From Desulfobacteraceae bacterium Eth-SRB1 (GTDB lineage Bacteria; Desulfobacterota; Desulfobacteria; Desulfobacterales; ETH-SRB1), in contig RPGP01000040.1 in the NCBI GenBank assembly GCA_004193555.1, positions 1,183,127 through 1,247,126 of the forward strand: a DNA stretch of 64,000 nucleotides. Direction: 5' to 3'. Below, piece after piece: positions 27,871 through 38,849 of this stretch; position 1 is the first letter of the stretch; the number at the start of each line of letters is the position of its first letter. Position numbers and translations under genes: made by a program. Below the pieces are notes generated by a model that saw only the letters and a list, made by a program, of their open reading frames with translations, did not search any database and was not told the origin of the DNA.

Positions 27871-28980
27871 TCAAGGCGTTTCACGATCAGGAAACAGCCT
27901 CATTATATCCTGCTCTGTTGCCCTGCATATGCCGTTTTCGGTAATAAAACCTGTTACAAGTCTTGCAGGGGTGACATCAAAAGCAAAGTTTGCGGCAGGG
28001 CTGTTTTCCGGAGGAATGAGAACGCTTCTTATCGCTCCCTCGTCAAAACCCTGCACATACCTTATTTCATCAGGATCACGCATTTCTATGGGTATTTCCT
28101 TTAAGCCGTCTTTTAAGCTCCAGTCAAAAGTGCTGGATGGAAGGGCCACATAAAAAGGTATGTTGTTGTCCATGGCTGCCAGAGCTTTAAGATATGTTCC
28201 GATTTTATTGGCAACATCGCCTGTGCGGGTAGTCCTGTCAGAGCCGACTATTACAATGTCAACCATCCCGTCTTGCATCAGGTGGCCGCCTGCGTTGTCT
28301 GTTATTACGGTGTGTTTGACGCCGTGTTTGCCCAGCTCCCATGCAGTCAGTCTTGCGCCCTGGTTAAGGGGCCTTGTCTCGTCCACCCAGACATGAATAT
28401 CTATGCTGTTTTCAAATGCCGCATATATCGGAGCGGTTGCTGTTCCATATTCTATGCAGGCAAGCCATCCTGCATTGCAGTGGGTAAGTATATTGACGGT
28501 TTTGTTTTTCTTTTTCTCGCTGATATTCTTTATGAGAGTTAAACCGTTTTTGCCTATCTTTCTGCAGCGACAAACCTCATCTTCGACAATTTTATCAGCC
28601 TGTTTTTTTGCAACCTCAATTTTTGTTAAGGAATTATCAATTTTCAAAATTTTAGACAAAACCTTATCGACCGCCCAGGCAAGATTGATCGCGGTCGGCC
28701 TTGAAGATTTTATCCTGTTGGATTCTTTAATCAGGTAATTATTGTTTATTGTTTTGTCCGGAGAATTAACGGTCGCAAGATATACGCCGTATGCCGCTGT
28801 TGCGCCGATCAACGGAGCCCCTCTTACATACATTTCTTTTAAGGCCGTTATAATGTCATCCACATTTTTAAGATCAACAACGACAAATTTATGTGGAAGA
28901 AGCCTCTGGTCTATGACCTTAACAACCTTTGAATCCTTTTCCAGCCATATGGGCCGTATGTTTTTGCCATCTACTTTCAT
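27871..28980 (-). CDS. mtnA: Methylthioribose-1-phosphate isomerase
   Basis: A 369-aa member of the eIF2B-alpha/MtnA family that isomerises 5-methylthioribose 1-phosphate to methylthioribulose 1-phosphate in methionine salvage. Family motifs: EMYVRGAPLIGATAAYGVYL, the catalytic Cys in NILTHCNAGWLAC, the catalytic Asp region DIVIVGSDRTTRTGDVANKI and VALPSSTFDWSL. Length is typical. It is monocistronic here, followed by a repeat element. No SAM riboswitch was recognised upstream. Confidence 0.95.
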   Translation of the reverse strand: MKVDGKNIRPIWLEKDSKVVKVIDQRLLPHKFVVVDLKNVDDIITALKEMYVRGAPLIGATAAYGVYLATVNSPDKTINNNYLIKESNRIKSSRPTAINLAWAVDKVLSKILKIDNSLTKIEVAKKQADKIVEDEVCRCRKIGKNGLTLIKNISEKKKNKTVNILTHCNAGWLACIEYGTATAPIYAAFENSIDIHVWVDETRPLNQGARLTAWELGKHGVKHTVITDNAGGHLMQDGMVDIVIVGSDRTTRTGDVANKIGTYLKALAAMDNNIPFYVALPSSTFDWSLKDGLKEIPIEMRDPDEIRYVQGFDEGAIRSVLIPPENSPAANFAFDVTPARLVTGFITENGICRATEQDIMRLFPDRETP

Positions 28981-29448: not shown

Positions 29449-30954
29449 ATGAAACAGCTATTAAATATAATTTTTGCGACTATCATTGCATGTCTGGCGT
29501 GTATCCAGCATGTCGGACCGGCCTGTGCTGATAATATCCGGGAGCCTGTATGGGCAGGCCGTTTTTATCCTGCTTCTCAATCCGAACTGGTGCAGGTCAT
29601 TGATAATTTTACCAGACAGGCAAAACAGACAAAGATTCAAATTCCCCGCAAAGGGTCGCTTAAGGCCCTGATTCTTCCACACGCAGGATATATCTATTCC
29701 GGACTTACAGCAGCGCATTCCTCGCTTGTGCTTAAGGAAAATCAATTTGAAAAGGTGATTTTGATTGGGCCGGATCACAGGATAGGTTTTAATAACAGCG
29801 CCATCAGCGATGTAGGGGCTTATCAAACTCCCCTCGGCCCTGTAAAGCTGAGCAAAGATGCGGCAACATTGCGCAGCCGGTCGAACCTGTTTCGATCTGT
29901 TCCTGATTCAGACATGCTTGAGCATTCAGTGGAAGTGGTATTGCCGTTTTTACAGCATTACATTAAAAAGTTCGAATTGATACCGGTTGTAACAGGCAGG
30001 GCCGATGCCAAATCGCTGGCACACGCAATTGAGCCGTTGATTGATGAAAAAACACTCCTGGTTGCAAGTTCGGATCTGTCTCACTACCTTTCATATTCGG
30101 AAGCTAAAGATAGAGACAAAGAAACAATTAATATGATATTAAACCTGAAATCTGATAAGCTGTTGAAAAGCAACAATAGCGCATGCGGCAAGATACCGAT
30201 TGGCATTATACTTAATATGGCCGGAAAATATGGCTGGCAGCCGGTTCTTCTTCATTATTCAAACAGCGGTGACATTGCAGGCGGACGGGCAAGGGTCGTC
30301 GGCTATGCGGCCATCGCATTTTATGGAGATTTATCTATGGAAAAAGATAATAATTCAGGTAAACAAATCAGCAATCAGCACGGTCAGGCGCTGATTAAGC
30401 TGGCAAGGCAGACAATTCTGAAAAAACTCGGCAGGGGAATTGATATGCCTGAATCCGACTCCCTGTCGGAGATACTGCCGGAACTCTTGATGGATGACGA
30501 TCTTCAGGCTAAGCGCGGGACATTTGTTACTTTAAAGATTGATGACCAGCTGCGCGGATGTATAGGAAGTTTATCCTCTGATGAACCTGTTGTAGAGGGG
30601 GTCAGGCGCAATGCGATAAATGCCGCTTTTCATGATCCCCGTTTTTCTCCGCTGACTGTTGAAGAAGTTGACAACGTTGATGTAGAGATCAGCATTCTTA
30701 CTGAGCCGCAGCTTCTTGAATATACAGATGGCGCTGATTTGATTTCAAAGCTGAGAGTTGATGTTGATGGCGTTATTATCAGAAAAGGACCGGCTTCCGC
30801 CACTTTTTTACCCCAGGTCTGGAAGCAGCTTCCACGGCCGGAGATGTTTCTATCCCAACTATGCCTGAAAGCAGGCCTGTCTGCCGATATATGGCGAAAA
30901 GCCGGGCTGGAAGTTAAGACCTACCAGGTACAGTATTTTGAAGAAAACAGGTGA
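29449..30954 (+). CDS. Exported Memo-AMMECR1 fusion (AmmeMemoRadiSam system proteins B and A)
   Basis: About 501 aa. A signal peptide (about 1-27, MKQLLNIIFATIIACLACIQ, cleavage near CA-DN) precedes a Memo domain (about 30-295) with LILPHAGYIYSG, VILIGPDHRIGF, EHSVEVVLPFL and NNSACGKIPIG, which hold the His and Cys ligands/active residues known in Memo. An AMMECR1 domain follows (about 315-500) with the diagnostic LRGCIGSLSSDEPVVEG and NAAFHDPRFSPL. In most genomes A and B are separate. The system is named from its co-occurrence with a radical SAM enzyme; its reaction is unknown. The earlier TTG at 29383 would bury the signal peptide, so I prefer the ATG at 29449. Confidence 0.88.
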   Translation: MKQLLNIIFATIIACLACIQHVGPACADNIREPVWAGRFYPASQSELVQVIDNFTRQAKQTKIQIPRKGSLKALILPHAGYIYSGLTAAHSSLVLKENQFEKVILIGPDHRIGFNNSAISDVGAYQTPLGPVKLSKDAATLRSRSNLFRSVPDSDMLEHSVEVVLPFLQHYIKKFELIPVVTGRADAKSLAHAIEPLIDEKTLLVASSDLSHYLSYSEAKDRDKETINMILNLKSDKLLKSNNSACGKIPIGIILNMAGKYGWQPVLLHYSNSGDIAGGRARVVGYAAIAFYGDLSMEKDNNSGKQISNQHGQALIKLARQTILKKLGRGIDMPESDSLSEILPELLMDDDLQAKRGTFVTLKIDDQLRGCIGSLSSDEPVVEGVRRNAINAAFHDPRFSPLTVEEVDNVDVEISILTEPQLLEYTDGADLISKLRVDVDGVIIRKGPASATFLPQVWKQLPRPEMFLSQLCLKAGLSADIWRKAGLEVKTYQVQYFEENR

Positions 30955-33049
30955 AAAAGCCGTAATTCTGGTGGTCATCGCCACAGGCATTTCCTCTGTG
31001 GTGACTCAATTATTGATCATCCGCGAATTTCTGGCCCAATTACAGGGCAATGAATTTGTAATAGCCCTGATACTGTTCAGCTGGTTGATTACAGGTGGGA
31101 TCGGCACATTGCTGGCCCGGCTTGTAGCCAGACGGTTGTGGCGTCCCACAGCCTGCAGGCTCGGCTGGCTGTCGTTTTGCCTGGCCTTCCTTCCTGCCCT
31201 GCAAATCCTGGTTATTCGCAGGCTTCGTGATATTTTATTCATCCATGGAAGTTCAATTGGATTTTATCCTGTCCTGGGATATATTTTTTTCACTGTCGCG
31301 CCATATTGCCTGCTTGTAGGTTTTGTGCTTCCTTACAGCCTGTTTCTCTTCAGGGTTGAAGATCCGGATTATCCCGGAACCCGCATCTATATGACGGATA
31401 ATCTTGGGGATGTGGCAGGGGGCGCCCTGTTTTCCTTTATCCTGGTTTACCTGTTTTCCCCTTTACAAGCTGTATTCCTGGGCAATCTGCCGCTTGTCGC
31501 GGCTTCATGTTTTCTGTTTGTTTCTATTCGACGGATGCATCCGGCTGCTTTTATCGGAGCGGGTCTGGCGCTTGTTATCCTTCTATCGGGCATTTATTTC
31601 GAACCCGCAACCCTTGTCCCGAGAGAAGGAGAACTTGTCCATTATAAAGAATCCCGTTATGGCCGCATCTCTGTTCATAAAGACAGGGAACAATACACAC
31701 TGTTTATAGACGGAACCCCTGTGTTCAGCAGCCAGAATTTAAACATGGCCGAAGAGGCGATACATTATCCCTTATCGCAGGTAAGCGATCCGGAAAATAT
31801 TTTGTTGATTTCCGCTGAAGGCGGGATGATGACTGAGCTGCAAAAGTACAGGCCGGCAGGTGTGGATTATGTGGAACTGGACCCTGAAGTCAGCCATGTT
31901 CTATTCCGGTTCGGCCTGATAAAAAATATCCCTGGTTTAAACGTTATCAATCAGGATGCACGGGCATATCTGGCGGGTTCTGATAAAATATATGATGCAA
32001 TAATTGTAAATCTGCCTGAGCCTGAGACCTTTCAAATCAACCGGTTTTTTACCGGCCGTTTTTTTGAACTGGCAAGGACCCATCTTGCCTTGCACGGTGT
32101 GTTTGGTTTTTCCGTGCAGGGATTTGACAACTATCTCGCCGAACCCCAGCGCCGGAAAATTTCTTCTCTTTATAATACCGTGTCTGATCACTTTAAACAT
32201 GTTTTGCTGCTGCCCGGAGAAAGGATATTTTTTCTGTGCAGTGATAATCCAATAAATATTGATATTCCCGCATGTCTTGAGAAAAAGGGCATTCCTACCA
32301 GTTACATCAGCGGTTTTTTTTATGGCAATCTTACACATGAAAGAATCGTTGGTTTAAATAATATGATTGATCCGTCAACCCCTGAAAACATAGATGAATT
32401 TCCACAGTTGATCCGGCTGATGTTTTTGCAGTGGTTCGCCAAATTTTCCACCTCTCCCTATGGATTCATTGCCGGTCTAACCGTGCTGCTTATCATCTAT
32501 CTTGTGCGTATTGCGCGGGAGGAGTTTGTTCTCTTTTCCACCGGCTTTATGGCCATGGGCAGCGAAATTCTGGTTATTTTTGCTTTTCAGATCTTTTTCG
32601 GTTATATTTATTTTCAGATAGGATTGATTGTAACGGTTTTTTTAGCCGGCCTGCTGCCAGGCGCCTGGTTTGGTGAAAGAATGCGGGGCAGGGGAAGGCT
32701 GATGCTGGCGCTTACCGACGGTCTGCTTATTATCCTGATTGCGCTGTTTATGATAGCCGTAAAGCAGTACGGGGACAGGCTGCCTGTCGCTGTTTTTCTT
32801 ATTTTCGGATTTGTGGTTTCTCTGACTTGCGGCTGTCAATTCCCGGTAGCGCTCAGATTGCGGGGGGGCGACAATCCGGCGGCGACACGGGCATTTTCTG
32901 CTGATCTGATCGGCGCGGCATTTGGAACCTTAATCACCAGCGTGGCGCTTATCCCCTGTTTCGGCATTATATGGACTGCGGCAGGATTGATCGGCTTGAA
33001 ACTAACAAGTATTATTGTTATTGCAACAGGATATGAGAAAAATAAATAG
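30938..33049 (+). CDS. Polytopic membrane protein with spermidine-synthase-like domain
   Basis: A 703-aa protein: about seven N-terminal membrane segments (residues 8-220), a soluble spermidine synthase/methyltransferase-like domain (about 225-470: ILLISAEGGMMTELQKY, VDYVELDPEVS, INQDARAYL, YDAIIVNLPEPE), then about six more membrane segments to the end. The canonical GGGDG is SAEGG and the aminopropyltransferase Asp position is altered (VNLPEP), so spermidine synthesis is doubtful. With a cytoplasmic N-terminus, an odd number of helices puts the soluble domain outside. It overlaps the Memo-AMMECR1 gene by 17 bp and the radical SAM gene by 17 bp, so the three are tightly coupled. The start is TTG. 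Confidence 0.82.
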   Translation: MKKTGEKAVILVVIATGISSVVTQLLIIREFLAQLQGNEFVIALILFSWLITGGIGTLLARLVARRLWRPTACRLGWLSFCLAFLPALQILVIRRLRDILFIHGSSIGFYPVLGYIFFTVAPYCLLVGFVLPYSLFLFRVEDPDYPGTRIYMTDNLGDVAGGALFSFILVYLFSPLQAVFLGNLPLVAASCFLFVSIRRMHPAAFIGAGLALVILLSGIYFEPATLVPREGELVHYKESRYGRISVHKDREQYTLFIDGTPVFSSQNLNMAEEAIHYPLSQVSDPENILLISAEGGMMTELQKYRPAGVDYVELDPEVSHVLFRFGLIKNIPGLNVINQDARAYLAGSDKIYDAIIVNLPEPETFQINRFFTGRFFELARTHLALHGVFGFSVQGFDNYLAEPQRRKISSLYNTVSDHFKHVLLLPGERIFFLCSDNPINIDIPACLEKKGIPTSYISGFFYGNLTHERIVGLNNMIDPSTPENIDEFPQLIRLMFLQWFAKFSTSPYGFIAGLTVLLIIYLVRIAREEFVLFSTGFMAMGSEILVIFAFQIFFGYIYFQIGLIVTVFLAGLLPGAWFGERMRGRGRLMLALTDGLLIILIALFMIAVKQYGDRLPVAVFLIFGFVVSLTCGCQFPVALRLRGGDNPAATRAFSADLIGAAFGTLITSVALIPCFGIIWTAAGLIGLKLTSIIVIATGYEKNK

Positions 33050-34214
33050 GCGAAAATTTTTATATTGCAGCGCGGCTGTTCTTTCAAGTGCTATGCCTTT
33101 TTGTTCCTTCTGGCCTTTTGCGGGAACAGACAGCGAGGCCTCTGGATCTGTTGATATCCGCGGCAGGATTTTTAAAGGAGGGGCGCCCGCAAAACTATGG
33201 AAATGGTCTCATGAAGGTTTTTTTTATACAAAGTTAAAAGATAACAAAGTTGTATGCGGCATTTGCCCCAACAGATGCATTCTGGCGCCGGGTGATTTAA
33301 GCGTCTGCCGCAGTAAAGTTAATATTGGCGGAACATTATACAGCCTTACATACGGAAACCCATGCAGTTTACATGTCGATCCTATAGAGAAAAAGCCGCT
33401 TTTTCATTTTAAACCACGCACAACCGCCTTTTCCATTGCCACCACCGGATGCAATTTTCGATGTTTAAATTGCCAGAACTGGGAAATTTCCCAGGTAAAA
33501 CCTCACCAGGTGCGCCATTATGAACTTTTTCCCCGGGATGTGGTTGTTAAGGCGCAAAGCGCCGGGGCGAAATCGATTGCCTATACCTATTCAGAACCAA
33601 CAACCTTTTTTGAGTACATGATAGACATAGCGCGCATTGCCAGGGAAGAGGGTATATATAATTTGTGGATATCGAACGGTTACATTAACCGGAAGCCCCT
33701 GCTGGAGCTATGCAAAGTTCTTGATGCGGCTAATGTCAACCTGAAGTCATACAGTGATGCCATATACAGGAAATTAAACGGCGGCAGGCTGGAGCCGGTG
33801 TTAAATACTTTTAAGACCCTGCGTGAACAGGGGGTACATTTTGAGATGACGAATCTCGTTGTTCCCGGATATGTTGATGATCCTGACATGGTAAAAAAAA
33901 TGTGCGGATGGATACTCGATAACCTTGGAACCGATTATCCCCTGCACTTTTTGCGTTTTTTTCCGAAATACAAACTTGACAGGCTGGCCCCGACTCCGGT
34001 TTCAACCTTGACCCGCTTTCGCAAGCTGGCCATGCAGGAGGGAATCCGTTATGTATATGTGGGCAATGTGCCAGGCCATGAAGGCAATAATACCTATTGC
34101 CATAATTGCGGAAAGTTATTGGTTGAAAGAAAAGGGTATTTAATTCCCACTTATAATCTTGTTGGAAATAAATGCAAGTTTTGCAATAGCATTATCCCGG
34201 GCGTATGGGCATAA
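33033..34214 (+). CDS. AmmeMemoRadiSam system radical SAM enzyme with Tat signal
   Basis: About 393 aa. The N-terminus MRKINRRKFLYCSAAVLSS is a twin-arginine signal (RRKFL plus hydrophobic stretch). A Cys-rich N-domain (CGICPNRCILAPGDLSVC) precedes the radical SAM core with CNFRCLNCQNWEIS (cluster CxxxCxxC), IAYTYSEPTTFFEYM and LWISNGYI. The C-terminal zinc ribbon has CHNCGKLL and CKFCNSIIPGVW. This matches the pyruvate-formate-lyase-activase-like enzyme of AmmeMemoRadiSam. Export of a radical SAM enzyme would be exceptional since SAM and reductant are cytoplasmic. The upstream ATG at 33015 would give six extra residues; I chose 33033 because it places the Tat motif normally. Confidence 0.88.
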   Translation: MRKINRRKFLYCSAAVLSSAMPFCSFWPFAGTDSEASGSVDIRGRIFKGGAPAKLWKWSHEGFFYTKLKDNKVVCGICPNRCILAPGDLSVCRSKVNIGGTLYSLTYGNPCSLHVDPIEKKPLFHFKPRTTAFSIATTGCNFRCLNCQNWEISQVKPHQVRHYELFPRDVVVKAQSAGAKSIAYTYSEPTTFFEYMIDIARIAREEGIYNLWISNGYINRKPLLELCKVLDAANVNLKSYSDAIYRKLNGGRLEPVLNTFKTLREQGVHFEMTNLVVPGYVDDPDMVKKMCGWILDNLGTDYPLHFLRFFPKYKLDRLAPTPVSTLTRFRKLAMQEGIRYVYVGNVPGHEGNNTYCHNCGKLLVERKGYLIPTYNLVGNKCKFCNSIIPGVWA

Positions 34215-34227
34215 ACGCTGAAAAAGA

Positions 34228-34393
34228 TGAACATCGAACATATTAAAAGATGAACGTCCAACATCGAAGATTGAACATCGAACGTCGAATAATGATGTCG
34301 CTTCGCTCCGCCAGTTTATAAATTGGCAGAATTCCTTATTCATCATTCGATGTTGGATGTTCAATCTTCATTTCTTTTCCCGTTGGACGTTTA
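34228..34393. repeat. 7-bp periodic inverted repeat element (AACATCG family)
   Basis: Left arm of AACATCG/AACGTCC units (34228-34292), core GATGTCGCTTCGCTCCGCC and CAGTTTATAAATTGGCAG, right arm TCGATGTTGGATGTTCAAT and onward. Nearly the same element occurs at 43662-43788. It lies between convergent genes and could serve as a terminator. Confidence 0.8.
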
Positions 34394-34411
34394 CTTTTTT
34401 CAGTTTTGAAA

Positions 34412-35211: not shown

Positions 35212-36942
35212 CTAAAAATTATAAACCGTGTCCAGTTCTTCGTCTGAAATGTCGAACACCTCGTTGTGTGGCGGGAGCTTTTCCAGCTTAAAGAACTCAG
35301 GCAGCCGGTCATCAACCGATGTGAAGCCTGCTCCCTTGTTAAAATCTCTTTCCATTTTAAGTACCCGTTGCCCCAGAGAAGCGATATCATCACCGGTCAA
35401 TGAAAGACCATATTTTGCGTTGAGCATATCCACAATGGCATTGAATGCATCCGGTATATCCAGAACCGGAAAGGCCACGAACAGGCAAAGACCTGCCGTG
35501 TCAATGGCAGCGGTTGCTATCTGGAGATCCCTGGACAATTTAACCTGCCCTTCCGCTTTCAAAGGATCTACATCGCCACCTACTTTCATTATGTTGGTTG
35601 CTACAGCATACCCTGCAGTATGGTCGGCCCCCATTGTTGAAGTGGCATAGGTTACGCCAACACCCTTAACAGCCCTGGGGTCATAGGCCGGGAGGGCCTG
35701 GTTTTTAACGACAGGAACCCGCCTTACTCCAAATGCCTTTCCAACCACTGCCGCTCCTGATCCTAAAATTCGCCCCAGGGGTGTTCCCTTGCCGATTTGC
35801 GCCATGAGTTCCTCGGCTCCGGCCGCGTCCCCGAATTCTTTGACCCCGCCTTCCATGGCTACTGCAATTGCATTGCCTGTTTCAATGGTATCAATTCCGA
35901 TGTCGTCGCAGGCACGGTCCATTCGCGCAATAGCTTCTAAATCATCGATCTCGCAATTGGGACCCAATGCCCAGACCGTCTCATACTCAGGCCATTTGGA
36001 CAGATATTCGCCGTTTTTATCGAGGTAAGTGCCTGAACACTTAATAATGCAGCCGGTCATACACCCCTGGGTGGGCTCACCTTTTCGCTCAAGTGTAATC
36101 CTGTTTAAAGTTTCTCCTCCTACTTTGTCGGCGGTTTCAAAGCGCCCTGATCTGAAATTTCGCGTGGGAAGACCGCCAGCCTCGTTGATAATGTTTATAA
36201 GCACATCTGTTCCATAGGTCGGAAGACCCTGGCCTGTTACAGCGTGTTCTGTCAAGGCCTTTGCAAACCGTTTTGCGGCTTCACTGAACGCCTCTTTGTC
36301 AGCGAGTGGCGCCATTTCAGTATCTGACGGATCGATAATAATTGCTTTGAGACCCTTGGAACCCATAACAGCGCCCAGGCCTCCTCGACCCGCATGACGC
36401 GTGGGGCGAACTTCCTTGTCTGTAAAGGCTACGCTTGCAGCCCCTAATTTCCATTCGCCTGCCTGGCCGATACTCACAAAGCCCGTTTTTTCACCAAATT
36501 CATTTTTCAGCTTATCTATTGTTGCATAGTTTCCCATGCCTTTGAGATCGTCAGCAGGGGATAATTCCTGTTTTTCTTTGCTGACAAACAGCTTATACAA
36601 TTTCCCATCTTCAGGCAGGCCCTCAATTACTACGGCTGAAATCCCAAGCCTGGATAGATACCCGCCTGCCTGGCCGCCTGAATTGGCCTCCTTGATGCCT
36701 CCGGTCAGGGGACTCTTAGCCCCTACGGAAATTCTGCCGGAGTTGGCGCATTTGGTGCCTCCTAACAAGCCGGGGGCAAAAATAAGTTTGTTGTTCGGCC
36801 CGATAGGGGAGCAGGTCGGCTCCACCTCGTTTAACAGGATTGCGGAAGTTAATCCTCTTCCTCCAAGACCTTGATAAGCGTCAGGGACGTCTTCTTTTTT
36901 GACCGAAAGGTCAGACATGTTTACCCGAATAATCTTAAACAT
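35212..36942 (-). CDS. Aldehyde:ferredoxin oxidoreductase, tungsten-pterin
   Basis: A 576-aa AOR-family enzyme that interconverts aldehydes and carboxylic acids using a bis-molybdopterin tungsten centre and one [4Fe-4S] cluster. N-domain features: GGRGLTSAILLNEVEP, LIFAPGLLGGTKCANSGRIS, RPTRHAGRGGLGAVMGSKGL (pterin contacts). Cluster Cys are in GCMTGCIIKCSG and TAGLCLFVAF. Slightly shorter than the 605-aa Pyrococcus enzyme but within family range. The divergent MoaD-MoaD-ThiF genes probably help make or tailor its pterin cofactor. The start has a strong AAAGGAGG site. The aldehyde substrate cannot be read from sequence. Confidence 0.92.
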   Translation of the reverse strand: MFKIIRVNMSDLSVKKEDVPDAYQGLGGRGLTSAILLNEVEPTCSPIGPNNKLIFAPGLLGGTKCANSGRISVGAKSPLTGGIKEANSGGQAGGYLSRLGISAVVIEGLPEDGKLYKLFVSKEKQELSPADDLKGMGNYATIDKLKNEFGEKTGFVSIGQAGEWKLGAASVAFTDKEVRPTRHAGRGGLGAVMGSKGLKAIIIDPSDTEMAPLADKEAFSEAAKRFAKALTEHAVTGQGLPTYGTDVLINIINEAGGLPTRNFRSGRFETADKVGGETLNRITLERKGEPTQGCMTGCIIKCSGTYLDKNGEYLSKWPEYETVWALGPNCEIDDLEAIARMDRACDDIGIDTIETGNAIAVAMEGGVKEFGDAAGAEELMAQIGKGTPLGRILGSGAAVVGKAFGVRRVPVVKNQALPAYDPRAVKGVGVTYATSTMGADHTAGYAVATNIMKVGGDVDPLKAEGQVKLSRDLQIATAAIDTAGLCLFVAFPVLDIPDAFNAIVDMLNAKYGLSLTGDDIASLGQRVLKMERDFNKGAGFTSVDDRLPEFFKLEKLPPHNEVFDISDEELDTVYNF

Positions 36943-37376
36943 AGCAACCTCCTTTCTTTTAGAAGTAAAGTATTAGAGATATTTTTTAAACATGTCATAA
37001 AAAAAGTATTATCGCAAGGTAAAACAATAAAAAATCAAAGAGATAGTTCAACCTTGACATAATAATTTATCTTTATGATAATTTAGATATGATGAATTCG
37101 TAAAAGTCGAATTCATCAAGTGTTAGGTGTTAAGTGTTAGGTGTTAAGATAAAACATTTAATTGTCATATCAAATACTTAACATCTAACACTTAACACAT
37201 TTCGCAAATAGCAATTTTTTGACTTTCAAATAACTAAATCATAATCTTTTGATATGACAAGTTATTTTCGATTACAGTGTCGCAAAGCGGTATAACTTAG
37301 CTTTTTACGAGACCATCATTGTTAACTTTTTTATTTCCGAGCCTGCTTTTATAAAAATTTATCAGGATAGATACAA
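36943..37376. repeat. Divergent intergenic region with GTTAGGT-family inverted repeat
   Basis: No gene. It contains a promoter-like sequence and a GTTAGGTGTTAAGT/ACTTAACATCTAACAC inverted repeat with 7-bp period (37119-37199), preceded by the motif TTCGTAAAAGTCGAATTC that also accompanies this family at 43587 and 48108. Confidence 0.75.
37054..37082 (+). promoter_or_regulatory. Promoter-like sequence upstream of the MoaD-ThiF genes
   Basis: TTGACA (37054-37059), 17-bp spacer, GATAAT (37077-37082). It is nearly 300 bp before the first gene, with the repeat element between, so the link is tentative. Confidence 0.45.
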
Positions 37377-37616
37377 ATGTCATTGAAAATTCTTCTAAGT
37401 TCAAGTCTGCGGAAATATATCTCAGGCTATGACCCGGCAAAAGGGATGAGTTTTTCCGTGGATGAGGAAATAACAGTGGAAGAGTTATGCGAACGGATAA
37501 ACATTCCGTGTGATAAAATAAAAATAATTATGGTGAACGGGAAGAGTAAACCCATGGATCATGTGTTAAAAGGCGATGAGCGGGTGGGGCTTTTCCCGCC
37601 CATAGGAGGGGGTTAA
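37377..37616 (+). CDS. MoaD/ThiS-family ubiquitin-like sulfur carrier
   Basis: A 79-aa beta-grasp protein ending VGLFPPIGGG; the terminal Gly-Gly is what an E1-like enzyme adenylates and thiocarboxylates in molybdopterin or thiamine synthesis. The motif DHVLKGDERVGLFPP is typical of MoaD-like carriers. The ThiF/MoeB-type E1 is encoded two genes downstream, and the tungsten enzyme AOR is divergently encoded, so tungstopterin synthesis is the likely role. Confidence 0.82.
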   Translation: MSLKILLSSSLRKYISGYDPAKGMSFSVDEEITVEELCERINIPCDKIKIIMVNGKSKPMDHVLKGDERVGLFPPIGGG

Positions 37617-37617
37617 T

Positions 37618-37962
37618 ATGACAACCGCTAACAAACCGCACAGCATAAGTATTCGCGTATTTGGTTTCCTCCGTCGCTACATGGATGAGCAGGGACTTTC
37701 ATATGCCTTTGATAAAGATATCAAGCCCAAAGGCGAGACAGCGTATGATATTGCTGTGGAACTTCATATCCCTCCGGAAGAAATCGAAGGGGTCTTCTTG
37801 AACGGAAGCGTAAAAAATATCTACGATTCCGTGTTCCCCGGCGACCGCGTGGCTTTTATTCCTTATGGGACACCAGGGCCATACCGTGTTTTTCTGGGCA
37901 TGGTTAGGGAAAATGTTAAGCGTGCGCGCCGTGAGAAAAGTATGGCAAACATAGAGGCTTAA
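37618..37962 (+). CDS. Second MoaD/ThiS-like protein with extended, non-GG C-terminus
   Basis: A 114-aa protein sharing the beta-grasp pattern (VFLNGSVKNIYDSVFPGDRV) with the preceding carrier. Where the family normally stops with Gly-Gly it continues IPYGTPGPYRVFLGMVREN and ends MANIEA. It therefore lacks the usual activation tail and might be a structural or regulatory partner, or need processing. It begins one base after the stop of the first carrier gene and ends two bases before the E1 gene. Confidence 0.72.
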   Translation: MTTANKPHSISIRVFGFLRRYMDEQGLSYAFDKDIKPKGETAYDIAVELHIPPEEIEGVFLNGSVKNIYDSVFPGDRVAFIPYGTPGPYRVFLGMVRENVKRARREKSMANIEA

Positions 37963-37964
37963 AA

Positions 37965-38849
37965 GTGAGCGCCAAAAAGCAGATAAATATACAAAAACTT
38001 ATTCGCTCAAAGTCTAAAAAAGCCGGGGATGCGGCAGGCCGTGAGGCGCTGGTTTTAGAGGATGCGCATGCCCTGAAAATCGCAAAGGAATGTGGCTGCA
38101 AAGTATATGACGTTTATGTAAACGCTCTGAAAGAGGGAATTTGTCCGTACCGATACCTCCGTAACAGGGAGACCATATCGCTTAAGGAACAACTCAGGTT
38201 GGCAGAGTCCAGGGTGGCTGTGATCGGCGCCGGCGGGCTGGGCGGACAGGTTATTTTATTGCTGGCCAGGATAGGGATCGGACATCTGGTAATTGTTGAT
38301 AGAGACGTATTTGAAGAAACAAATCTGAATCGCCAGGCCCTGTGCAGTAATAATACTTTAGGCAAATCAAAAGCCAAAGAAGCGCTTGCCGCTGTGGGAG
38401 CTGTTAATCCAAGCGTTAAGGTGTCAGCCTATCCGGTAAAGCTGGACTTCTCCAATGCATTTGAAATGCTGTCCGGTTCGGATGTGATTGTAGATGGTCT
38501 GGACAACATATCTGATCGGTTTGTCCTGGAAGAAGTATGCAAGAAGTTGGGTATTCCTCTAATACACGGAGCATTAGCGGGTTTCGAGGGCAGGGTAATG
38601 ACCATTTTTCCTGATGATCCTGGTCTGAAGAATCTCTATGGCAATAAAAAGGCAAATAAAAACAGCTCAAAAAGTCCTGAGGCTGTTCTTGGTATTCCTG
38701 CCCTAACCCCTTGCCTGATTGCAACCCTGCAGGCCATGGAGGTTCTCAAGATCATTCTCAAGCGAGGGGAAATTTTCAAAAATGCAATGCTTTATGTGGA
38801 CTTAGAGACCGGACTGATGAATGATTTTGTCTTTGAAAAGAATGAATAA
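37965..38849 (+). CDS. ThiF/MoeB/HesA-family E1-like adenylyltransferase
   Basis: A 294-aa E1-like enzyme. After an N-terminal extension (about 1-75) comes the Rossmann ATP-binding loop VIGAGGLGGQVILLLARIGIG, VDRDVFEETNLNRQALC (with the catalytic Asn/Arg/Gln set) and DGLDNISDRFVLEEVC, the standard ThiF/MoeB core. I do not see the two CxxC zinc motifs of MoeB near the C-terminus. It should adenylate the C-terminal Gly of the carrier protein encoded upstream. GTG start. Together the three genes form a tight operon. Confidence 0.87.
   Translation: MSAKKQINIQKLIRSKSKKAGDAAGREALVLEDAHALKIAKECGCKVYDVYVNALKEGICPYRYLRNRETISLKEQLRLAESRVAVIGAGGLGGQVILLLARIGIGHLVIVDRDVFEETNLNRQALCSNNTLGKSKAKEALAAVGAVNPSVKVSAYPVKLDFSNAFEMLSGSDVIVDGLDNISDRFVLEEVCKKLGIPLIHGALAGFEGRVMTIFPDDPGLKNLYGNKKANKNSSKSPEAVLGIPALTPCLIATLQAMEVLKIILKRGEIFKNAMLYVDLETGLMNDFVFEKNE

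Follow-up and report, generated by a model that had tools for sequence, protein, structure and literature searches.

A predicted envelope-exported AmmeMemoRadiSam system associated with a transporter-fold protein carrying a spermidine-synthase-like domain

The three-gene locus and its export signals

The stretch of DNA analysed here (the window, 64,000 nucleotides from Desulfobacteraceae bacterium Eth-SRB1) carries at positions 29449-34214 of the forward strand a trio of genes that combines an AmmeMemoRadiSam system with a membrane protein. The outer genes encode a fusion of the Memo and AMMECR1 proteins and AmrS, the radical S-adenosylmethionine (SAM) enzyme of the system. The middle gene, which overlaps each neighbour by 17 nt, encodes a protein with the fold of the major facilitator superfamily (MFS) and 14 transmembrane (TM) helices, into which a domain resembling spermidine synthase (SpeE) is inserted; we refer to it as MFS-SpeE. 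The features are as follows:

29449..30954, forward strand: Memo-AMMECR1 fusion, ATG start, 501 aa, Sec signal at about 29449-29532
30325..30328, forward strand: Shine-Dalgarno-like GGAG for an internal AMMECR1 start, with codon bias at the junction Gly
30337..30954, forward strand: predicted internal product from an in-frame ATG at 30337, AMMECR1 without signal peptide, 205 aa
30938..33049, forward strand: MFS-fold 14-TM protein with inserted spermidine-synthase-like domain, TTG start, 703 aa
31619..32452, forward strand: SpeE-like (SAM-type Rossmann) domain between TM7 and TM8, residues about 228-505, predicted to be extracytoplasmic from the structural model and the positive-inside rule
33033..34214, forward strand: AmrS, AmmeMemoRadiSam radical SAM enzyme, ATG start, 393 aa, Tat signal at about 33033-33140

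A preliminary description of this DNA had proposed that Memo and AMMECR1 lie in one protein behind a signal peptide, that the radical SAM enzyme has a twin-arginine signal and that a polytopic membrane gene overlaps both, and each of these points was borne out. The system components exceed their NCBIfam cut-offs, TIGR04336 with 238 bits (cut-off 26) and TIGR04335 with 194 (99), both in the fusion protein, and TIGR04337 with 339 (220). The fusion begins with a Sec-type signal, MKQLLNIIFATIIACLACIQHVGPACA ahead of DNIREP, followed by Memo and then AMMECR1. Among homologues, a signal peptide was found in 57 of the 58 Memo fusions that adjoin the membrane gene versus 1 of 26 isolated stand-alone Memo proteins; seven fusions carry lipoboxes, and several Bacteroidota Memo-AMMECR1 proteins are of this type. 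In one Desulfobacterota sub-branch it is AMMECR1 that has its own signal peptide, in an operon without Memo. The Memo metal ligands H78, H110 and C246 are 100% conserved across the exported homologues. The iron site of human Memo consists of H49, H81 and C244 (PMC11081632), and the residues that match these and D189/H192, with the correspondence made by motif, are likewise kept at 100% in exported Memo. Certain AMMECR1 positions have been lost in the exported branch, as judged by comparison with 8 cytoplasmic sequences. In one genome (G053:C330:7446-8246; G, C and L numbers denote genomes, contigs and loci) an in-frame TAG lies inside the Memo match and may reflect a frameshift, a split gene or recoding; in its relatives G083 and G107, Memo and AMMECR1 occupy different frames. 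The fusion itself is no hallmark of the exported branch, as unsignalled fusions exist (e.g. L288, L296); of the earlier proposal of a distinct envelope branch with fused Memo-AMMECR1, the exported trio stands and the branch-specific fusion does not.

AmrS begins with MRKINRRKFLYCSAAVLSSAMPF, a signal of the twin-arginine translocation (Tat) type in which the twin-arginine motif is followed by a hydrophobic segment, and this arrangement is conserved in homologues. Our Tat calls were made from the motif and hydrophobic run as read from sequence and are not SignalP or TatP output. An RR, KR or RK motif with a hydrophobic run is kept in more than 100 homologues, and nearly all unsignalled AmrS proteins have 12-16 residues ahead of the first Cys. 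The NCBIfam Tat model TIGR01409 matches 6 of the 18 AmrS proteins of one alignment, with the window protein not among the matches. TatC is present in the Eth-SRB1 genome (3.3 Mb, 52 contigs) at 249.5 bits against a cut-off of 25.1. By sequence, the N-terminal extensions read as signals, and homologues keep them: Tat signals on AmrS, signal peptides or lipoboxes on Memo-AMMECR1. In the window protein the radical SAM motif CxxxCxxC comprises C140, C144 and C147, and the SAM-binding E188 lies in a TYSEPT motif; across exported AmrS all eleven family cysteines are 100% conserved, the motif Glu is kept, and 43 of the 58 columns that are invariant in cytoplasmic AmrS are retained at ≥95%. Since the cysteines and motif residues are fully conserved, we infer that exported AmrS retains radical SAM chemistry and presumably acts outside the cytoplasm. 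A different arrangement was seen in G045 (L145 / L244) and G008 (L150 / L246), where an AmrS with no recognisable signal adjoins a Memo whose N-terminus forms a membrane anchor and the MFS-SpeE gene lies elsewhere in the genome.

The membrane protein and its co-occurrence with export signals

The predicted structure of MFS-SpeE (pLDDT 88.5, pTM 0.88) consists of seven TM helices, a SpeE fold (residues about 228-505) and seven further TM helices. The helices superpose over their full length on MFS transporters (G6PT1, Z 30.0, 353 residues aligned, root-mean-square deviation 3.3 Å; other high matches were VMAT2, NorA and the 14-TM PepTSt), and the inserted domain matches spermidine synthase structures (1uir, Z 27.1) as well as the Spermine_synth family PF01564 (36.3 bits, cut-off 22.9). 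The window protein stays below the cut-offs of the models for fused MFS/spermidine synthase, NF037959 (29.1 versus 40 bits), and for membrane SpeE, NF002956/PRK03612 (105.7 versus 472 bits); a distant homologue at L125 scores 78.8 on NF037959. In MFS proteins with 14 TM helices an extra hairpin separates the two six-helix bundles, and the SpeE-like insert occupies the site of the outer loop of this hairpin, which offers a simple reason for an external position. Consistent with this idea, the mean number of K+R residues in 25 homologues is 18.3 over the 8 loops and termini of the N-terminal side versus 4.6 over the 6 loops of the domain side. TM count, charge distribution and MFS fold thus agree in predicting that the domain is external, as had been suggested.

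That the external domain is of the SAM-binding fold also stood, in a refined form: it is SpeE-like and inserted in an MFS protein, it has lost residues that spermidine synthases need, and it is found with a second family of Tat-signalled radical SAM proteins as well (see below). The nucleoside-binding acids are kept, the ribose-binding Glu of the ELD motif (VELDP) and the Asp of the DGR motif (QDARxYL) being nearly invariant. None of the homologues inspected keeps the Asp of GGGDG, which selects decarboxylated SAM, and the catalytic Asp pair of DxxDP is largely lost, giving xLPEP or similar (NLPEP in the window protein); on account of these losses we reject a role as spermidine synthase. The motifs NRF and EExxHYPL are strongly conserved. 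In a plant spermidine synthase, replacement of the first Asp of GGGDG by Ile abolished or lowered aminopropyl transfer and allowed SAM to be accepted (PMC3725402). Given the retained nucleoside acids, the lost GGGDG and DxxDP Asp residues and this plant precedent, binding of a SAM-type ligand appears likelier than spermidine synthesis.

A scan of species genomes for AmrS yielded 80 loci, in about 70 of which the membrane gene accompanies the radical SAM gene and in about 63 of which Memo-AMMECR1 (or AMMECR1) is present, many of the loci without the full trio being cut by contig ends. There is no conserved fourth gene: any further gene is shared by at most 6 of the 80 loci. The trio was found in Desulfobacterota, Bacteroidota, Ignavibacteria and contigs binned as Woesearchaeota and Theionarchaea; on the piece of the Theionarchaea contig examined the membrane gene was absent. 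The order of the three genes is not constant, so that the association cannot be put down simply to one inherited arrangement.

We located AmrS and the membrane protein in a set of 148 Desulfobacterota genomes and read the regions; the signals co-vary with the membrane gene as the preliminary description had anticipated. Among the roughly 150 AmrS matches listed, all 47 classified Tat-signalled AmrS proteins are in genomes with a full-length MFS-SpeE protein, whereas a Tat signal was seen in 0 of 43 AmrS proteins from genomes without it. For this comparison sequences were read in roughly half of the genomes without the membrane protein, and part of the set was chosen because the membrane gene was present. 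Genomes with the membrane protein also hold 40 unsignalled AmrS proteins among the matches listed, mostly a second, cytoplasmic paralogue; five of the 40 (L088, L108, L120, L121, L128) are Tat by eye and were missed by the rule. Tat-signalled AmrS occurs in 49 of the 54 genomes that have the membrane protein, spread over 30 GTDB families, and the best 46 matches to a profile built from mostly exported AmrS all fall in genomes with the membrane protein.

An internal AMMECR1 start, a second radical SAM family and the genome setting

The Eth-SRB1 genome encodes a second AmrS that has no signal (C1:98709-99719, N-terminus MEACLYESLKENKVKC) as well as a further Memo that is also unsignalled (C1:196661-197500), but we found no AMMECR1 in it besides the fusion copy. 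In most Desulfobacterota fusions the junction holds an in-frame ATG 8-13 codons 5' of the AMMECR1 domain, preceded by TAYGGAG. Several observations bear on this site: (i) an ATG with a Shine-Dalgarno sequence is present in 51% of all fusions, compared with 7% of windows placed at random in these genes; (ii) 27 of 28 homologues use GGA for the junction Gly, where about 6 would be expected from codon use, and four other conserved glycines used as a control have mixed codons; (iii) in L026 and L029, which encode Memo and AMMECR1 separately, the same Shine-Dalgarno sequence and ATG start AMMECR1; (iv) signalled stand-alone AMMECR1 genes carry the internal Shine-Dalgarno sequence and ATG too and (v) AMMECR1 is single in 8 of the 8 examined genomes with the internal start, with a second copy in 7 of 9 where exported AMMECR1 lacks it, a contrast that is partly a clade effect. 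The conserved internal start, together with the lack of another AMMECR1 in the genome, suggests that one gene yields two products, the exported fusion and an AMMECR1 that stays in the cytoplasm and presumably serves the cytoplasmic AmrS and Memo of the same genome. The cytoplasmic AmrS gene (L001:606-3951, at about 98.7 kb of C1) is flanked, by eye, by a gene for a class I methyltransferase on one side and genes for UbiA-like and UbiX-like proteins on the other, which may point to a connection of the cytoplasmic system with quinones or isoprenoids.

MFS-SpeE is not confined to AmrS. A different Tat-signalled radical SAM gene (LTRRDFLRR...), which scores 25-26 bits on the AmrS model, far under the cut-off, overlaps the membrane gene in G021 and G058. 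This second family usually lacks a signal and then has about 310 residues, a form that is widespread (the Eth-SRB1 copy is at C1:140753-141700); there is also a signalled form. In the 30 loci read, the genome encodes the membrane protein for 15 of 15 Tat-signalled members versus 5 of 15 unsignalled ones; three members adjoin the MFS-SpeE gene and several lie beside Tat-signalled AmrS or the membrane gene. As the Tat-signalled members of this family co-occur with the membrane protein in the same way, two radical SAM families appear to be exported, both with MFS-SpeE. Members of the Tat branch that overlap or neighbour MFS-SpeE are:

L125:7405-8487, reverse strand
L129:7096-8208, reverse strand
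L107:3279-4364, forward strand

Upstream of the MFS-SpeE and radical SAM pair, at L125:10757-12794 and L129:10449-12489, are genes for a Gate-domain (nucleoside recognition) protein and a FadL/TodX-type outer membrane protein.

In the window, the divergent gene upstream of the trio (27871-28980, reverse strand) is by eye MtnA-like (methylthioribose-1-phosphate isomerase, a function in salvage of SAM by-products) and was not seen as a conserved neighbour. Downstream, the intergenic region at 34230-34400 contains repeated and inverted short units (AACATCGAACATC / GATGTTGGATGTTC), and 35212-38849 holds by eye an aldehyde ferredoxin oxidoreductase-like gene on the reverse strand with MoaD/ThiS-like and MoeB/ThiF-like genes downstream on the forward strand, a possible tungsten enzyme cluster.

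Interpretation and alternatives

We consider it very probable that the soluble proteins of the trio are exported across the membrane. Whether they form an extracytoplasmic AmmeMemoRadiSam branch in which MFS-SpeE is the partner that supplies SAM or clears its by-products is, in our estimate, evenly balanced, and supply of SAM by MFS-SpeE, which is suggested by the transporter fold, the residues of the domain and the co-occurrence with two exported radical SAM families, is plausible at slightly less than even chances. In this working model AmrS would fold and acquire its Fe-S cluster(s) in the cytoplasm before Tat export, and Memo-AMMECR1, exported by Sec and in some Bacteroidota probably a lipoprotein, would partner it outside, either in the periplasm or on the external face of the inner membrane. 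There they may modify a periplasmic substrate or a maturing redox protein, as the preliminary description proposed. The SpeE-derived domain in the external TM7-TM8 loop may bind SAM or a SAM-derived nucleoside with no aminopropyl transfer, and the likeliest job of the 14-TM protein would be to provide SAM to exported AmrS or to exchange SAM for spent 5'-deoxyadenosine and methionine. The internally started AMMECR1 would stay in the cytoplasm for the cytoplasmic AmrS and Memo.

A number of points weigh against this model. Radical SAM enzymes are regarded as cytoplasmic since SAM and a strong reductant are found there; for these organisms we know of no extracytoplasmic supply of SAM or of low-potential electrons. 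Sulfate reducers do have periplasmic low-potential cytochromes, and Bacteroidota would need another electron donor. An MFS fold alone is no proof of SAM transport, and the evidence on location, while well supported, is in silico. Five genomes (G008, G045, G019, G021, G058) have the membrane protein and no recognised Tat-signalled AmrS, G019 being fragmentary and G021 and G058 having the other Tat-signalled radical SAM protein, and three genomes have a cytoplasmic AmrS gene at a distance of 1.3-1.5 kb from that of the membrane protein. The phylogenetic distribution of signal and membrane gene is clustered (7 changes on the tree, with only 3 supported pairs in an independent-pair test), so that raw p-values overstate the co-variation. 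Finally, in about 12 loci the operon lacks a Memo domain, and AMMECR1 need not be outside everywhere because it is separate and unsignalled in L026, L029, L103, L169 and L173.

The least probable alternative, and one we give very little weight, is that the signals were misread and all of the proteins are cytoplasmic. The Tat calls do depend on motifs and not on a dedicated predictor, and TIGR01409 was not listed for the window protein and matched 6 of 18 homologues; yet the recurrence of motif and hydrophobic run in over a hundred homologues, set against the short leader of unsignalled AmrS, speaks against misreading, as do the independent Sec signals and lipoboxes of the partner protein. We also regard it as improbable that exported AmrS and Memo-AMMECR1 have abandoned radical SAM chemistry to become an Fe-S or metal module for redox or binding that has no need of SAM. 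Such a module would fit with neither a SAM source nor a reductant being known from the periplasm, but it would not be expected to keep CxxxCxxC, E188 and most of the invariant columns (43 of 58), or to travel with a SAM-type domain.

Two further explanations accept export and assign MFS-SpeE a different role. In one, which we think unlikely while taking it seriously, the SpeE-like domain is an extracytoplasmic SAM-dependent transferase (e.g. an N-methyltransferase) that works sequentially with AmrS on one envelope substrate, with the MFS part as an anchor or substrate channel. Plant putrescine methyltransferase evolved from spermidine synthase, and the loss of the decarboxylated-SAM Asp resembles that change; the strong conservation of NRF and EExxHYPL also suggests a role beyond holding a ligand. 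However, the catalytic Asp pair is unconserved, the origin of external SAM is left unexplained, and the presence of the same protein with two radical SAM families fits cofactor handling better than a single substrate. In the other, which we judge about as unlikely, MFS-SpeE clears by-products, the domain capturing 5'-deoxyadenosine (or methylthioadenosine, MTA) and methionine for import by the MFS part while SAM arrives by another route. SpeE folds do bind MTA (as in the complex 3anx), 5'-deoxyadenosine is an inhibitor of radical SAM enzymes (PMC8102628), and the Gate gene lies upstream of the membrane gene in two genomes; this explanation also leaves the external source of SAM unexplained, and the Gate linkage is limited to one family (f26).

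Set beside known systems, the trio agrees with the AmmeMemoRadiSam system in its adjacent genes above curated cut-offs and in keeping the Memo metal ligands, the AMMECR1 RGCxG motif and the AmrS cysteines, and departs from it in the Tat signal on AmrS, the Sec signal or lipobox on Memo-AMMECR1, the linkage to MFS-SpeE and the additional cytoplasmic AmrS and Memo. MFS-SpeE resembles the NF037959 and NF002956/PRK03612 proteins in joining TM helices to a SpeE-like domain, but its domain is inserted midway along a 14-TM MFS fold and has lost the catalytic and decarboxylated-SAM Asp residues. With SpeE and plant putrescine N-methyltransferase it shares the fold of the insert, the nucleoside-binding acids and, with the latter, the loss of the GGGDG Asp; it differs in being predicted extracytoplasmic, fused to a transporter and without a conserved catalytic Asp pair. 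Like other Tat-exported Fe-S enzymes AmrS would be a folded metalloenzyme with a twin-arginine signal, unlike them it is a radical SAM enzyme. A 2019 study by Burroughs et al. in J Biol Chem reportedly linked Memo/AMMECR1/radical SAM neighbourhoods to isoprenoid and nucleobase modification. In the open literature that we searched there was no description of an exported AmmeMemoRadiSam system, an extracytoplasmic radical SAM enzyme or an external SAM supply, and nothing on MFS-SpeE fusions serving exported enzymes; to our knowledge no extracytoplasmic radical SAM enzyme has been reported.

Our broadest proposal, held tentatively and at somewhat less than even chances, is that Bacteria and perhaps some archaea run extracytoplasmic radical SAM chemistry, with at least two Tat-exported families fed by an MFS protein with an external SAM-binding domain, and with AMMECR1 shared between compartments through an internal start. 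If this is true, radical chemistry would be taking place in a compartment where its SAM fuel is unexpected, MFS-SpeE would suggest a delivery route that constitutes the first dedicated supply of SAM to the envelope, and a class of envelope chemistry together with a transporter for SAM (or its by-products) would await discovery. The strict co-occurrence of export signals with MFS-SpeE provides clear tests. Memo and AMMECR1, which are conserved up to humans, would gain a setting with an envelope substrate and thereby a much smaller search space.

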